Positions 8,511 to 21,768 of a stretch of DNA of 64,000 bases are shown here, one piece after another; the first letter of the stretch is position 1; every line of letters starts with the position of its first letter. A model generated the notes under the pieces. The model saw only the letters and a program-made list of their open reading frames with translations. It did not search any database and was not told the DNA's origin. Made by a program: the position numbers and the translations under genes. This DNA comes from Clostridia bacterium (GTDB lineage: Bacteria > Bacillota > Clostridia > TANB77 > CAG-465). The stretch is from positions 1 to 64,000 of the forward strand of contig JAFXHJ010000021.1 of assembly GCA_017536445.1 (NCBI GenBank), read 5' to 3'.

Positions 8511-10823
8511 TTATCCAATAATTTCTAGTGTCGTTCCTGTTATTATTAATCTCTTCATTCCAGCTGTTTCAAATTTTATTTCTGCAACTTTCATATCTGA
8601 ATCTTCTGTAAGGTTTGTTACAATACCAACACCAAACTTCTTGTGTCTAACCTTATCTCCCTCTTTAACTTCTACACTTGTATCATTAGTTTTAGATACA
8701 ACTTTACCAATGTTTACATTTTTTAAGAAGCTTGATGCATCAATTCCAATTTTAGAAGGTGTGCGTCTAGGCGAATATCCGCCCATAGATTCGCTTTCAC
8801 TAATTTCATTAAATGTACTAGATAGCCAGCTTTCTACTCTAGAGTATTCGTGATCAAGATACTTTTCTTGTTTCATTTTAGCTTTTTCTAGATTTTCTTT
8901 TGCCGCTTCATCTAAATATTCTTTTGGAATTTCTTCAGTAAATCTAGAAGGTATTGTGTATGTTGTTGTACCATACATTGTTCTTTGTTTGGCATTTGTT
9001 AAGAATAATTCTTTCTTTGCTCTTGTTATACCAACATAACAAAGTCTTCTTTCTTCTTCTATACCATTATCCTCATCTATACTTCTCTTAGATGGGAATA
9101 ATCCTTCTTCCATACCAACTAAGAATACTACAGGATATTCTAGACCTTTGGCGTTGTGCATAGTCATAAGAATAACTGCTTCACTGTCTTCTTCTAAATT
9201 ATCTACATCTGCTACTAAAGCAATACTATCTAAGAAATCTGTTAATGAGTTATCTGCATTTTCTTCTTCAAATTCTTTTGCAACACCTAATAACTCATAT
9301 AGGTTTTCTAGTCTAGATTCATTTTCAGGATTCTTTTCCTTCATAAGTTCTGCTTCATAGCCTGTAACTTCAAGTATTCTTTTCATAAGTTCAGATGGAA
9401 GCATTGTATCTTTAACCGCATTTAAGTCTAGTATTAAATCTCTAAAGTTTGCTACTGCACCGCTGCATCTAAGTTCTGCTATATTTGCAGGTTCTGTAAT
9501 ATACTCAAACGCACTAATTTCCATAGACTCTGCTTTTTCTTTTATTCTATCTACAGAAGTATCTCCAATACCACGTTTAGGTTCGTTTATTATTCTAGTA
9601 AACGAGACATTATCTTTAAGGTTATTTACAAGCTTTGTATATGCTAGTAAATCTTTAATTTCTTTTCTAGCATAGAACTTAGTACCACCAATTAATCTAT
9701 ATGGCGTTCCTGTTTTCATAAATACATCTTCAATTACACGACTTTGTGCATTTGTTCTATAAAGAAGCGCAAAATCTCCGTATTTGAATTTACCAGTTCT
9801 ACACATAGAATCTATTTTATCTACTATATATTCTACTTCGTCATATTCGTTTTTAGCAGTATAATATTTAACTTTTTCACCTTCATCATTTTCTGTCCAA
9901 AGGTTCTTTTCTATTTTAGAAGTATTGTTGTTTATTACTGCATTTGCTACATTAAGAATTGTTTTAGTACTTCTATAGTTTTGTTCTAGCTTAACTATTT
10001 TTGCACCATCATATTCTTTTTCAAAATCTAGTATGTTAGATATATCTGCACCTCTAAATGCATATATACTTTGTGATTCATCACCAACAACACATACATT
10101 ACCATGCATTGCAGCAAGCATGCTTATTAGCATGAATTGTACATGGTTTGTATCTTGATACTCATCTACTAATATATGCTTAAACTTGTTTTGATAATAA
10201 CTTAATCTATCTGGATTTTTCTTAAATAACTCAACTGTATAATTTAAGATATCGTCAAAGTCTAGTGAGTTATTTAATTTTAATGTCTTTTGGTACTCTT
10301 CATATATTTTTGCTATAGTTTCTTTTCTGTAATCTCCTATAGACTCTTTCATATATTTTTCTGGAGTCTTAAATACATTCTTTGCTGCGCTAATTTCGTT
10401 TACCAAACAAGAAACCGAATAATTCTTTTCATCTATTTCAAATTTCTTAAGTATTTCTTTTAATACTTTTTGTTTATCTAACTCATCTAATATATTAAAG
10501 TCTCTAGTAAAACCTAAAGCTTCTATTTCCCTTTTAAGTATTCTTACACAAATTCCATGGAAAGTTCCAAGCCACATATCTTTAGCATCATCTCCTACTA
10601 AATTTATAACTCTTTCTTTCATTTCTTTTGCCGCTTTGTTTGTAAATGTAATTGCAAGTATCTCCCAAGGCTTACAAAGTCCTTGTTCTAAAAGATATGC
10701 AATTCTATATGTTAAAACTCTAGTTTTACCACTTCCTGCACCTGCTAATATTAAAAGTGGTCCATCTGTATATGATGCCGCTTCTCTTTGCACAGGATTT
10801 AATCCGTTTAGTAATTCACTCAT
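8511..10823 (-). CDS. pcrA: ATP-dependent DNA helicase PcrA/UvrD
   Basis: Superfamily 1A 3'-5' helicase for repair and for clearing RNA polymerase or RecA from DNA. 770 aa, close to PcrA of Gram-positives. Walker A is LAGAGSGKT (26-34), motif II is VDEYQDT near residue 220, and QNYRST and late GITRAKK motifs are present. The C-terminal ~60 residues form the Tudor-like RNA-polymerase-binding region (GDKVRHKKFGVGIV). Its ATG overlaps the stop of the upstream DUF6873-like gene as TAATG, so the two are translationally coupled. Confidence 0.96.
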   Translation of the reverse strand: MSELLNGLNPVQREAASYTDGPLLILAGAGSGKTRVLTYRIAYLLEQGLCKPWEILAITFTNKAAKEMKERVINLVGDDAKDMWLGTFHGICVRILKREIEALGFTRDFNILDELDKQKVLKEILKKFEIDEKNYSVSCLVNEISAAKNVFKTPEKYMKESIGDYRKETIAKIYEEYQKTLKLNNSLDFDDILNYTVELFKKNPDRLSYYQNKFKHILVDEYQDTNHVQFMLISMLAAMHGNVCVVGDESQSIYAFRGADISNILDFEKEYDGAKIVKLEQNYRSTKTILNVANAVINNNTSKIEKNLWTENDEGEKVKYYTAKNEYDEVEYIVDKIDSMCRTGKFKYGDFALLYRTNAQSRVIEDVFMKTGTPYRLIGGTKFYARKEIKDLLAYTKLVNNLKDNVSFTRIINEPKRGIGDTSVDRIKEKAESMEISAFEYITEPANIAELRCSGAVANFRDLILDLNAVKDTMLPSELMKRILEVTGYEAELMKEKNPENESRLENLYELLGVAKEFEEENADNSLTDFLDSIALVADVDNLEEDSEAVILMTMHNAKGLEYPVVFLVGMEEGLFPSKRSIDEDNGIEEERRLCYVGITRAKKELFLTNAKQRTMYGTTTYTIPSRFTEEIPKEYLDEAAKENLEKAKMKQEKYLDHEYSRVESWLSSTFNEISESESMGGYSPRRTPSKIGIDASSFLKNVNIGKVVSKTNDTSVEVKEGDKVRHKKFGVGIVTNLTEDSDMKVAEIKFETAGMKRLIITGTTLEIIG

Positions 10824-11617: not shown

Positions 11618-12421
11618 CTAACCTAGAAGCATTTCATTGACTATTTTTTGCACAGCATAATAATCATATCCGGCGCCTGTAAGTCTGTCTTTTCTTTCCT
11701 TACCATTCCCCCATTTTCCTTGTATTACCTCTTTTGCAATTTGCTCATTTGTTTTCTTTCCAAGTAATTTTTCATTAACTATATTTTGAATAGTATAATA
11801 ATCGTATCCAGCAGCTTTAAGGCTGTCTTTTCTTTCTTTGCCGTTTCCCCATAAACCTCTAATTACTTCGTCTGCTATTTCTTCATTGGATTTTCTACTT
11901 TCACTACCTTCTTCATCTATTCCGTTTATTTTATTTGCTTCTAAAATAATATAATCTAGCTTGCTTAAAAGATATTTACCAGGGCAAGCAGTTGCGGTAT
12001 ACATATTATGCCAAGTTAGATTTTTACCTTTAACCAATTTCCCTAAATTATTTCTCTTAGCTACATCCGCAACTAGAAGTATTAATTTTTCTAGTGCTTT
12101 ATCCGACACGGGATAATCTCCACTAGCTTTGCTATTAGATACTTCTATTGTTACAGATTCTTTGTTAGATTCAAAATTGCTGTTTGTATATGCTGTATCT
12201 TTTTCATTTACATAGAGAGCCACTCTTCCATCACTACCAATTCCGTAATGACTAGAAGCTTTTCTATCCGGATTCTTAAATACATTTCCGCACTCTTCTA
12301 TTGTTAGTACTGCTCCCATATGATGCACAGTTACCGCTTTTATCTTACTACCATTTCTTCCTTGCATATAGTTTGCACTATTTGCTAAGATTGTTTTATC
12401 TATTAGTTTTGAATTACTCAT
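11618..12421 (-). CDS. N-acetylmuramoyl-L-alanine amidase with two Cpl-7 wall-binding repeats
   Basis: The Amidase_2/PGRP zinc amidase domain spans about residues 20-160, with zinc ligands suggested by VHHMGA (His33, His34) and WHN...TACPGKYL near 141-155. Two near-identical C-terminal repeats of about 42 aa (from ~178 and ~224; NEEIADEVIRGLWGNGKERK and NEQIAKEVIQGKWGNGKERK) match the Cpl-7/CW_7 peptidoglycan-binding module of phage lysozymes. There is no signal peptide. This layout is typical of phage endolysins, but no other phage genes are near. It cuts the amide bond between MurNAc and stem peptide. Confidence 0.85.
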   Translation of the reverse strand: MSNSKLIDKTILANSANYMQGRNGSKIKAVTVHHMGAVLTIEECGNVFKNPDRKASSHYGIGSDGRVALYVNEKDTAYTNSNFESNKESVTIEVSNSKASGDYPVSDKALEKLILLVADVAKRNNLGKLVKGKNLTWHNMYTATACPGKYLLSKLDYIILEANKINGIDEEGSESRKSNEEIADEVIRGLWGNGKERKDSLKAAGYDYYTIQNIVNEKLLGKKTNEQIAKEVIQGKWGNGKERKDRLTGAGYDYYAVQKIVNEMLLG

Positions 12422-14735: not shown

Positions 14736-14803
14736 TTTTATCACCTAAAAAAATTATATAACAAAGTATAATTTAAAATCAATAAGTATTACAATTACAA
14801 ACA

Positions 14804-14837
14804 AAAACAACCTAATGTTTACGCATTAAGTTGTTTT
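14804..14837. terminator. Terminator between the Hint-domain gene and the patatin gene
   Basis: A stem of 8+5 bp with one mismatch (aaaacaac-taatg / catta-gttgtttt) and a T-run on both strands. Confidence 0.7.
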
Positions 14838-14862
14838 GTATAATTTTGATATAACATACTAG

Positions 14863-16521
14863 TTATTGTACACACGTTATTATATTATGTACTACAACAC
14901 CATTTGCAATATAATTATGATAACCTTCTATTGTTAAATTATATGTGTCATAATTGGGTTCCCCATTTCTTATCTCTATTGAAACTATCCTTACATTTTC
15001 TTCATATCCTATTAGCGTATCCCCTACTTTAAGCAGTTCTACTTTATCTAGCTCTTCAATAGTTTGAACATTGTTTGGTCTTAATGATTTCCAGCCCTCT
15101 ATAGTTAACAACGGGTGATAAGCTCTCATTCCTATTCTTATGCCATTCGAAAGATTAACATATACCAAATCATCCGAATTATGCTTAATTATTGTTTTTA
15201 ATACCTTTTGTGGTATATATTTTCCCGTTTCCTCATTAAGGGACATTACTATGTCTCCAACTTTTACATCTTCAATATTTTTAATTGTCCCATCTGCCAT
15301 CAATACTTTTGTTCCCGGATCAAAGCAACAATCTTCTGTTCCATCTGTATATGTATCACCACTAATAATTTTATCTGTTATAAGCACATTTTTTCCATAA
15401 TGAGAAACTCTTGCGCCGCCTAGATACGTTACATATGTATTTTCATATATTTCATAATCTCCGTTTAGGTTATATGAACTGTTTACCCAATTTTCCCAAG
15501 TCATTCCATTTATAGCGCTAAATATTTTGCCGCTTATATTAAATGTAATTAAACTTTCTTGTTCGGTAGCATTTGCTGTAAACCAGTTATAGAATTCTTC
15601 CGACACACTCTGTGGTGTTGTGCCAAAGTCAATATATCTTAATTCATCACCTTCCCACCCCGAATTATGTGAATAGTATATTTCTTGATTATAGAACGAA
15701 AGATACAATTTATTAATTTCAATATCATAGTATTCATAATCTACCGTATATGTAACTTTTTGAGTAATTTTAGTTGTTGGTAAATTTAAAGTTTCATTAA
15801 ATACCCATTGGCCACTTATTTCATATGTAGCTGGTGTATTCTCTGTTACAACAACTGTACAACTTGCGCTCGTACTACCATATGTTGCTGTTATTACTGC
15901 TGTTCCTGCTGATTTCATTGTTATCGTTGCAGTGTTGCCACTTGCACTTACCGTTGCTACACTTGTATTTGACGACTTCCACGTAAGACTTCCAGATATA
16001 TTGGCTGTAGTTACTGTTATTGTTTCTGTTGCTGTACTTCCACTATTTATTGTTTTAGATATTGTTGTTTTATTTAATGTTATTGTTGGCGTTGGAGTTG
16101 TTGTATCTCCTCCTGTATTTCCACCAACGTTACTACTTGGTGGTGTATATCCATCTATAACAATATTTAAATTACTTATTCCATCTTGAGATATTTTTAC
16201 ATTAAATCCTGTTTTAGTTGTTACCGATTTACTTCCATCTGCATTTGTTATTATTGCACTTTCAATTAATCCTTTATTTGACAATTCTGCAACATATTCA
16301 TCTATCGTTATTGTTCCAAGATTGTCTGTAAGTATTCCATTTTTTATTACTACTAATCTAGTATACTCATCTGAATAATTATTATTCTTAACAGTATTTT
16401 TACTTCTTTTTATAACACCACTATCTTCTAATGCAATTATTGCAGTTGCAGCTAAAATTGCCATTACAAGAATTGTTATACTTAGAACTATTAAGGATAT
16501 ACCCTTATTATTTTTTTTCAT
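14863..16521 (-). CDS. Pseudopilin-like N-terminus + Big_2 domain + C-terminal Hint (intein-like) domain
   Basis: 552 aa. Residues 1-35 are a prepilin-like segment (KKNNKG then ISLIVLSITILVMAILAATA) without Glu at +5. Residues ~147-226 form a Big_2 Ig-like domain (LTWKSSNTSVATVSASG). Residues ~235-360 are a second beta-rich region with RYIDFGTTPQSVSEEFYNWF. Residues 399-546 form a Hint domain: block A CFDPGTKVLMADG beginning at Cys399, block B with His469 (MRAYHPLL, where the usual Thr three residues before His is Arg), block F YNLTIEGYHNYIANG, and block G VVVHN (His545-Asn546). Asn546 is followed by Ile, not Cys/Ser/Thr, and only six residues remain. Protein splicing is therefore unlikely; self-cleavage, or transfer to another nucleophile, as in bacterial intein-like proteins, is possible. 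It lies 90 bp behind ypeB. Confidence 0.8.
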   Translation of the reverse strand: MKKNNKGISLIVLSITILVMAILAATAIIALEDSGVIKRSKNTVKNNNYSDEYTRLVVIKNGILTDNLGTITIDEYVAELSNKGLIESAIITNADGSKSVTTKTGFNVKISQDGISNLNIVIDGYTPPSSNVGGNTGGDTTTPTPTITLNKTTISKTINSGSTATETITVTTANISGSLTWKSSNTSVATVSASGNTATITMKSAGTAVITATYGSTSASCTVVVTENTPATYEISGQWVFNETLNLPTTKITQKVTYTVDYEYYDIEINKLYLSFYNQEIYYSHNSGWEGDELRYIDFGTTPQSVSEEFYNWFTANATEQESLITFNISGKIFSAINGMTWENWVNSSYNLNGDYEIYENTYVTYLGGARVSHYGKNVLITDKIISGDTYTDGTEDCCFDPGTKVLMADGTIKNIEDVKVGDIVMSLNEETGKYIPQKVLKTIIKHNSDDLVYVNLSNGIRIGMRAYHPLLTIEGWKSLRPNNVQTIEELDKVELLKVGDTLIGYEENVRIVSIEIRNGEPNYDTYNLTIEGYHNYIANGVVVHNIITCVQ

Positions 16522-16610
16522 TTTCTTTCGTACCCCTTTTGCTTATATAATTATATATTATACTTAAATCTTAATTTATTCAATAATTTTAGCGCTTTGT
16601 AACACAATTG

Positions 16611-18030: not shown

Positions 18031-18567
18031 CTACTTTGTAAATCTATGTTTTCCTATTGTTGTTATTGTTGGTCTACTGAATATCCATTTGTTTGTACTT
18101 GTTTTAGGGTTATAAAAGAAAAGGCAACCGTTAGTTGGGTCTGCTCCGTTATATGCTTCTCTTGCCGCCTTATACACAGTAGAATCTTTAGATATTGGTT
18201 TATCGAACTGTCCATCTCTTACACAAGAGAATTGATTTTTTTGGTAAATAACTCCTGAAATAGTATCTGGGAATTCTGAACTTTTAACCCTGTTCATAAC
18301 TATTGCTCCAACTGCTACTTGACCTTTATATGGTTCACCTCTTGCTTCACCATTTATTAATCTTGCAAGCAGGTCTACCATATCCCCATTGTTAGATACA
18401 GAACTTTGATCTGTTTTCTTTTTACTACTTGTTGAACTTTGATCTTTAACTGCCGCAATTACCTCTGGAAAAAGCTTTATTTGATCGTGATTAAACGTTA
18501 TATATAACATTACAAAAAGCGCCATTAAAATAACTATAATTATTCCAAAATTAAATATGTTTTTCAT
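18031..18567 (-). CDS. sleB: Spore cortex-lytic enzyme SleB
   Basis: 178 aa: a membrane or signal segment (~6-26), a Ser/Lys-rich linker, and a Hydrolase_2 domain (67-178). The catalytic Glu is probably Glu74 in GEARGE, with GQVAVGAIVMNRV and QKNQFSCV following. This is a lytic transglycosylase that degrades spore cortex during germination. It lacks the N-terminal peptidoglycan-binding domain of Bacillus SleB, as in many clostridial versions. It is co-transcribed with ypeB and uses the host-like AT-rich codons. Confidence 0.9.
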   Translation of the reverse strand: MKNIFNFGIIIVILMALFVMLYITFNHDQIKLFPEVIAAVKDQSSTSSKKKTDQSSVSNNGDMVDLLARLINGEARGEPYKGQVAVGAIVMNRVKSSEFPDTISGVIYQKNQFSCVRDGQFDKPISKDSTVYKAAREAYNGADPTNGCLFFYNPKTSTNKWIFSRPTITTIGKHRFTK

Positions 18568-21103: not shown

Positions 21104-21128
21104 AAAGGTTGCCCATCGGGCAACCTTT
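21104..21128 (-). terminator. Terminator of the second SleB-type gene
   Basis: An 11 bp GC-rich perfect stem (aaaggttgccc/gggcaaccttt, loop atc) overlapping the stop codon by two bases. Confidence 0.8.
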
Positions 21129-21768
21129 ACTTTGCGAAATTATGGTTTCCAATTACTTTTACTACAGGTCTAGTGAAAATCCACTGACTTGTACTAATCC
21201 GAGGATTGTAAAAGAATGTAGCACCACCAGTAGGATCAACTCCATTAAGAGCTTCAATTGCAGCTTGGTAACAAGTACCATAATCTGTAATTTCAGAATT
21301 CCACTTACTGCTACCAACAGGACTAAACTGATTCTTCTGATAGATTACATCGTGAATTGTATTTGGGAAGCCAGATGTTTTAATCCTGTTCATTACAACA
21401 GCACCAACAGCAACTTGACCTTCATAACATTCACCACGAGCCTCGAAATAAATGAGTCTTGCGAGTAAATCTAACTCTTCTTCAGTGTACCAAGTATCCT
21501 CTTTAGCAGTAGTTTCAGGAAGTTCTTTTAAAGGAACCTTTTCTTCAGGAATTTCTTCTACAGGTGCTATAGGTTTGCTAGGAAGTGTAGGTTCACTCTT
21601 AAAGCTATGTGTATTATCTATTCTTTCAACATAAGTGTTGTCTGCGACATCACTTGCTGATACGACGATACTAACATAAACTATAAGAAGAATTGCAAGA
21701 ATAATTGTCAAAACGACAATCAACCGTACCATAATTTTCATTGTTTTTTCAAACATTTCAGTCGTCAT
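21127..21768 (-). CDS. SleB-type cell wall hydrolase (second copy)
   Basis: 213 aa. A membrane or signal segment (~10-33) is followed by a Pro/Glu-rich linker and a Hydrolase_2 domain (~103-213). The domain has FEARGE, GQVAVGAVVMNRI and QKNQFSPVG, aligning along its length with SleB at 18031-18567. Unlike that gene it is written in a less AT-biased codon set (CCA, ACC, AAC, GGA with few ATA/TTA). It has its own consensus sigma-A promoter and a GC-rich terminator. It may act in growing cells rather than in germination. It has no ypeB partner nearby. Confidence 0.85.
   Translation of the reverse strand: MTTEMFEKTMKIMVRLIVVLTIILAILLIVYVSIVVSASDVADNTYVERIDNTHSFKSEPTLPSKPIAPVEEIPEEKVPLKELPETTAKEDTWYTEEELDLLARLIYFEARGECYEGQVAVGAVVMNRIKTSGFPNTIHDVIYQKNQFSPVGSSKWNSEITDYGTCYQAAIEALNGVDPTGGATFFYNPRISTSQWIFTRPVVKVIGNHNFAK

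Follow-up and report, generated by a model that had tools for sequence, protein, structure and literature searches.

What does an intein-like domain do at the far end of a pilin-like surface protein? The question is raised by a gene in the 64,000-nucleotide stretch of a gut-type Clostridia genome that we analysed (the window), which a sequence-only reading had described as a surface protein with a prepilin-like N-terminus, a Big_2 domain and a non-splicing Hint domain. An open reading frame of 552 codons plus stop was found on the minus strand at positions 14863–16521, the interval given by that reading; the plus-strand frame there contains many stops. All features of the gene given below lie on the minus strand. 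Its GC content is 31%, against 30% for the window, and the part encoding the Hint domain is compositionally ordinary. A terminator-like stem-loop with a T-rich tail lies just past the gene (14804–14837, minus strand; one found where 0.7 were expected), and the region around the gene gave no Rfam matches at gathering scores.

The protein begins with a K-rich leader and Gly7, followed by ISLIVLSITILVMAILAA, and the model of residues 1–125 (16147–16521) comprises two helices, of which the N-terminal one is long, and four strands. The basic leader, the Gly at −1, the hydrophobic N-terminal helix, the predicted helix and four-stranded sheet, and the presence of an assembly machine in the genome are shared with type IV pilins and pseudopilins, but Val occupies mature position 5 in place of Glu, and Ig and Hint modules are added. 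Glu5 was also missing in all aligned relatives and in the pilin within the genome's own type IV pilus operon, and because of its absence incorporation of the protein into a pilus is not assured. The solved pilins MshA and geopilin were among the best profile matches, weakly and over the first helix only (E 0.058–0.25); the N_methyl family was matched in 1 of 13 relatives (E 0.0065), and the fold comparison of the full-length model returned Hint matches exclusively. The prepilin-like character proposed earlier is thus borne out by the leader, Gly7, the hydrophobic helix and the modelled pilin-like head, but not at Glu5.

The Big_2 domain at residues 146–222 (15856–16086) falls slightly below the Pfam cut-off (E 1.2e-4, 22.4 bits against 22.8) but is supported by sequence matches to Big_2 and LigA/LigB Ig structures at E 0.0085–0.035. 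Residues 230–397 form stalk modules that are partly common to paralogues, as found by blastp against the pilins of the same genome: a module containing DFGTTPQSVSEEFYNWFTANAT at residues 230–325 (15547–15834) and a poorly predicted GMTWxxW module at residues 326–397 (15331–15546), similar to one that precedes the Hint domain in G276.

Residues 399–546 (14884–15327) are a genuine Hint domain. Residues 407–546 matched the Pfam profiles Intein_splicing (E 1.1e-11) and PT-HINT (PF07591, E 6.5e-9), and the NCBIfam profile TIGR01443 intein_Cterm was matched as well (E 1.1e-6), all above their cut-offs, with intein_Nterm under its own. Among PDB sequences, the Tetrahymena BIL2 domain, a Streptomyces protein from an umbrella-toxin study (PMC11062931), DnaB inteins and the C. 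thermocellum BIL were matched. The structure predicted with 35 Hint domains as input had a mean pLDDT of 91.5 and a pTM of 0.87, and its nearest solved folds were BIL2 (6y75; Z 24.2 over 145 residues, rmsd 1.5, 26% identity) and the C. thermocellum BIL (2lwy; Z 20.3 over 134 residues, rmsd 1.4), with mini-inteins at Z 18–21 and Hedgehog lower (1at0; Z 17.3 over 131 residues, rmsd 1.9). In the full-length model, residue 399 was aligned with residue 1 of many inteins. The superfamily is marked by the Hint fold and a Cys or Ser at position 1, and the domain has both, with Cys. Taken together, the Hint evidence, the support for Big_2 and the prepilin-like N-terminus go far beyond what chance would produce.

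The predicted nucleophile Cys399 (15325–15327; intein residue 1) opens the domain and His545-Asn546 (14884–14889; block G) closes it, as the sequence-only reading had stated, and the six-residue tail IITCVQ (14866–14883) follows. MRAYHP occupies residues 465–470, which places Arg466 (15124–15126) at the block-B Thr position and makes His469 (15115–15117) the block-B His. A script-based translation check returned Cys398, Cys399, Arg466, His469, His535, His545, Asn546, Ile547 and, in the tail, Cys550, which together with the alignment confirmed the two departures already noted by eye, Ile after Asn and Arg for the block-B Thr. In the alignment of 35 Hint domains, Cys1 and the Phe next to it, one Gly, one Ile and the block-B His were invariant and the terminal His-Asn nearly so; the window domain retained Cys399, His469, His535, His545 and Asn546 but was exceptional in having R-A-Y-H at 466–469 against a nearly invariant T-x-x-H. 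Its sole close relative, the Hint domain of G276 (51–53% identical), keeps T-A-Y-H and His-Asn.

The lack of a +1 nucleophile is the defining trait of BILs, and those of type A end in His-Asn and mostly cleave, with cleavage products dominating (PMC4031507). The window domain, with HN-I at its end, has the type A C-terminus, in which +1 is not Cys, Ser or Thr, and it keeps the His but not the Thr of block-B T-x-x-H, a motif that is widely shared among Hint domains and not strictly required of a BIL. By these residues and that definition we regard it as BIL-like of type A, with one departure that matters. Reactions at the N-terminal splice site are influenced by Thr B:7 and His B:10 (PMC4031507); since Arg466 replaces the nearly invariant Thr, cleavage at that site may proceed slowly or not at all, and there is real doubt, judging from sequence, as to whether this copy is active at all. 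The proposed non-splicing Hint on a pilin-like, Ig-bearing surface protein is therefore upheld as to its type-A BIL-like residues and the Ile at +1, but the change of Thr to Arg sets it apart among the 35.

The genome has its own type IV pilus operon (L078, from G000:C4, at 4269–10303 of L078), with a PilB/T2SSE ATPase, a PilT-like ATPase, T2SSF, a pilin of the KGISLIVL type and, adjoining the pilin, a gene with the A24_N half of a prepilin peptidase only; genes resembling PilM, PilN and PilO are probably also present, to judge by their position and sequence. A further A24 prepilin peptidase is located on another contig (L079). By motif count, about 26 open reading frames with a KGISLIVL-type N-terminus were found in the 1.31 Mb genome, the count covering fetched stretches, some cut at contig ends, and being no full census. 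These cassettes are mostly lone genes amid unrelated genes, with their C-terminal modules swapped (e.g. L057–L077); several lie at contig ends, some end in ..RPVVCLK.. domains, and several are followed by terminator-like sequences recognized by eye. The Hint profile had one match in the genome, and the window gene is the only KGISLIVL cassette with a Hint domain.

Across the order, Hint profile matches were found in 26 of 385 genomes, many of them true inteins or other Hints, and a pilin-like N-terminus combined with a C-terminal Hint was found in nine genomes besides that of the window. The His-Asn pair is intact in the window and in G276, G369, G218 and G037, where the next residue is Ile, Ala, Thr, Ala and Ala, respectively, and in each of the five the Hint ends the protein but for a tail of about 5 to 30 residues. 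The other five (G202, G363, G299, G143 and G374) carry a Hint-like domain without His-Asn. Elsewhere in the Clostridia, a classical GFTILELI prepilin is joined to a Hint without His-Asn (L107), so that the pairing, of which the sequence-only reading was aware of no case in Clostridia, both recurs within the order and occurs outside it. L107, together with L108 and L109, belongs to a set of very large surface-type proteins of Clostridia metagenome-assembled genomes with a C-terminal Hint lacking His-Asn. Mapping the pilin label onto a tree built from 47 Hint domains took 6 changes, of which well-supported branches forced at least 3, and a single pilin-Hint origin appeared in 0% of bootstrap trees; the pairing was therefore gained, or gained and lost, several times.

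A phage origin of the Hint domain was considered and is unsupported. Phage records and viral contigs contained no close full-length Hint (best about 40% identity), a scan of viral contigs with the single window sequence gave no match, and in the tree the window and G276 domains group by themselves as a starred pair. Structural-type proteins with a tandem pair of Hint-like domains were observed in four viral contigs (L118, L121, L123 and L124). Related genomes also carry inteins in UvrD/PcrA helicases at one site (GDNDQ|C...HN|CIYGFRG; L083, L088, L090 and L091 in G068, G098, G308 and G241), in phage terminase-like genes (L081 with two in one gene, L082 and L089) and in a ribonucleotide-reductase-like gene (L086); the window's own helicase (8511–10823) is without the UvrD/PcrA intein.

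The reading that we prefer, with a probability of about one half, is that of a pilin-like accessory protein of the cell surface in which the C-terminal Hint serves as a type-A BIL-like processing domain acting via a Cys399 thioester. Since nothing of domain size follows the Hint in the window protein or its four His-Asn relatives, the reaction would concern the part that precedes it. The protein would be exported, probably via the genome's own type IV pilus system, after which Cys399, assisted by His469, would attack the preceding peptide bond in an N-S acyl shift and place the pilin/Ig stalk (residues 1–398) on a thioester. Water or another nucleophile would then take the stalk C-terminus and the Hint would depart; candidate acceptors are thiol or amine groups, which a surface polymer, an adjacent pilin or a molecule of the host might supply. 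Asn546 with His545 may in addition cyclise and drop the six-residue tail. The sequence-only reading suggested that a cut at Cys399 could release or attach an outer part of the protein, but no such part remains: because the Hint is outermost, with only six residues beyond it, a break at Cys399 would shed the Hint itself and activate the C-terminus of the anchored pilin/Ig portion. The nearest folds being BILs, the retained catalytic residues, the pilus machinery and the repeated fusions argue for this processing reading, and Arg466, the five pilin-Hint proteins without His-Asn and the absent Glu5 count against it. The fold and its limits, the catalytic residues, the architecture, its recurrence and the presence or absence of the gene are established, and the export route, the chemistry and the kind of acceptor are inferred from them. 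In sum, the data point to, but do not so far demonstrate, pilins that cleave or chemically activate their C-termini once they are outside the cell.

A doubtful explanation, but one to be taken seriously, is that the Hint has lost its activity or is in decay: it would be a captured module in a pilin cassette that is reshuffled rapidly, where, if retained at all, it would serve as a folded tip. Arg466 in place of the nearly invariant Thr, the absence of the gene from a sister species (see below), the module swapping among paralogues and the Hints without His-Asn in five other pilin-like proteins are all in keeping with decay, whereas the open frame with Cys399, His469, His535, His545 and Asn546 intact, the predicted fold at pLDDT 91.5 and the retention of Thr and His-Asn in G276 at about 52% overall identity are not. 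Splicing, which would join residues 1–398 to IITCVQ, remove the Hint and leave the pilin with a Cys-bearing C-terminal tag, is quite improbable. A +1 nucleophile is not indispensable for splicing by type-A BILs, some of which splice to a small extent, but their products are mainly those of cleavage (PMC4031507). A Cys is found in the short tail of four of the five His-Asn proteins, Thr stands at +1 in G369, and the G369 and G218 tails share the ending SCGLEEYPIE; against this, Cys is missing from the remaining tail (AKSIS in G037) and the tails are otherwise dissimilar. An ordinary class 1 intein was ruled out by the Ile at +1 and by a host protein that is accessory and absent from the sister species.

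We consider it very unlikely that the protein is a PT-HINT protein of the polymorphic-toxin type, whether as a form whose C-terminal toxin was lost or as a carrier of exchangeable toxin tips. The profile match of 6.5e-9 and the abundance in the class of PT-HINT proteins with large C-terminal domains would fit, but the Hint is terminal in all five His-Asn proteins, and the toxin candidate was rejected for the window protein, where IITCVQ alone follows the Hint and C-terminal cargo is absent. The neighbouring downstream gene, a patatin-like lipase, is no dedicated partner, because it also follows ypeB in the sister species without the cassette. In that species (G001, same genus), the flanks are 91% (ypeB side) and 95.5% (patatin side) identical and YpeB is 95% identical, but the gene is cleanly absent, window positions 14785–16607 being replaced by 8 bp; either an insertion or a deletion may account for the difference. 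A second cassette (L061) is also absent from G001, with a different gene in its place, so that both sites compared there are without the cassette. Five further relatives have ypeB without an adjoining pilin. A spore or germination role tied to sleB-ypeB, a question raised by the sequence-only reading, is accordingly most improbable, and a conserved link through this neighbourhood was ruled out. The gene adjoins ypeB, whose product passes TIGR02889, and SleB has a Hydrolase_2 domain and a sub-cut-off match to TIGR02869, but a terminator-like site follows the gene, and the empty site between conserved flanks makes the neighbourhood incidental to function. The window also holds, close together, an amidase with two CW_7 repeats and two SleB-type hydrolases (11618–12421, 18031–18567 and 21127–21768); the amidase and the ypeB-adjacent sleB are conserved in the sister species.

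Several known systems resemble parts of the protein. Hedgehog proteins have a sterol-recognition region, of which none was seen in the window protein, and are not known to have the block-G His-Asn. The Hedgehog autoprocessing domain (PDB 1at0) is likewise a Hint at a protein C-terminus that acts on the preceding domain. The C. thermocellum BIL (PDB 2lwy) shares the fold, Cys1, the block-B His, the C-terminal His-Asn and the lack of a +1 nucleophile, but the window domain has Arg for the block-B Thr and sits at the extreme C-terminus of a pilin-like anchor. BIL2 of Tetrahymena thermophila BUBL1 (PDB 6y75 and 6tmm), the closest structure, belongs to a eukaryotic protein rather than a bacterial surface pilin. 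Polymorphic-toxin PT-HINT proteins, such as some Neisseria MafB proteins (PMC7738311), match the same Hint subfamily (PF07591) and are secreted, but the window protein has no toxin domain beyond the Hint. Hint and BIL domains are known on bacterial secreted proteins, and on large modular proteins such as the scaffoldin ScaO of C. clariflavum (PMC4582956). Among the open-access journal papers searched, none mentioned both a Hint domain and a prepilin, and looking for BIL or Hint domains together with pilins or type IV pili brought up Neisseria papers only. We did not find the repeated use of a Hint as the C-terminal tip of pilin-like proteins in the literature searched, in which it therefore appears new.

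For bacterial BIL domains, whose natural role is largely open, the recurrent fusions described here point to a clear substrate: in small genomes that also encode a type IV pilus, a Hint forms the very end of pilin-like proteins and could act on the C-terminus of the pilin itself, which mass spectrometry could readily follow. It is conceivable, if unlikely, that such proteins form a self-activating pilus, arisen several times in one Clostridia order, in which the Hint would make a C-terminal thioester on a surface pilin outside the cell and the filament or its tip would be covalently joined to a partner such as an envelope polymer, a neighbouring pilin or host mucus. If the domain is active, thioester chemistry of this sort would join the known routes for processing or attaching the surface fibres of bacteria.
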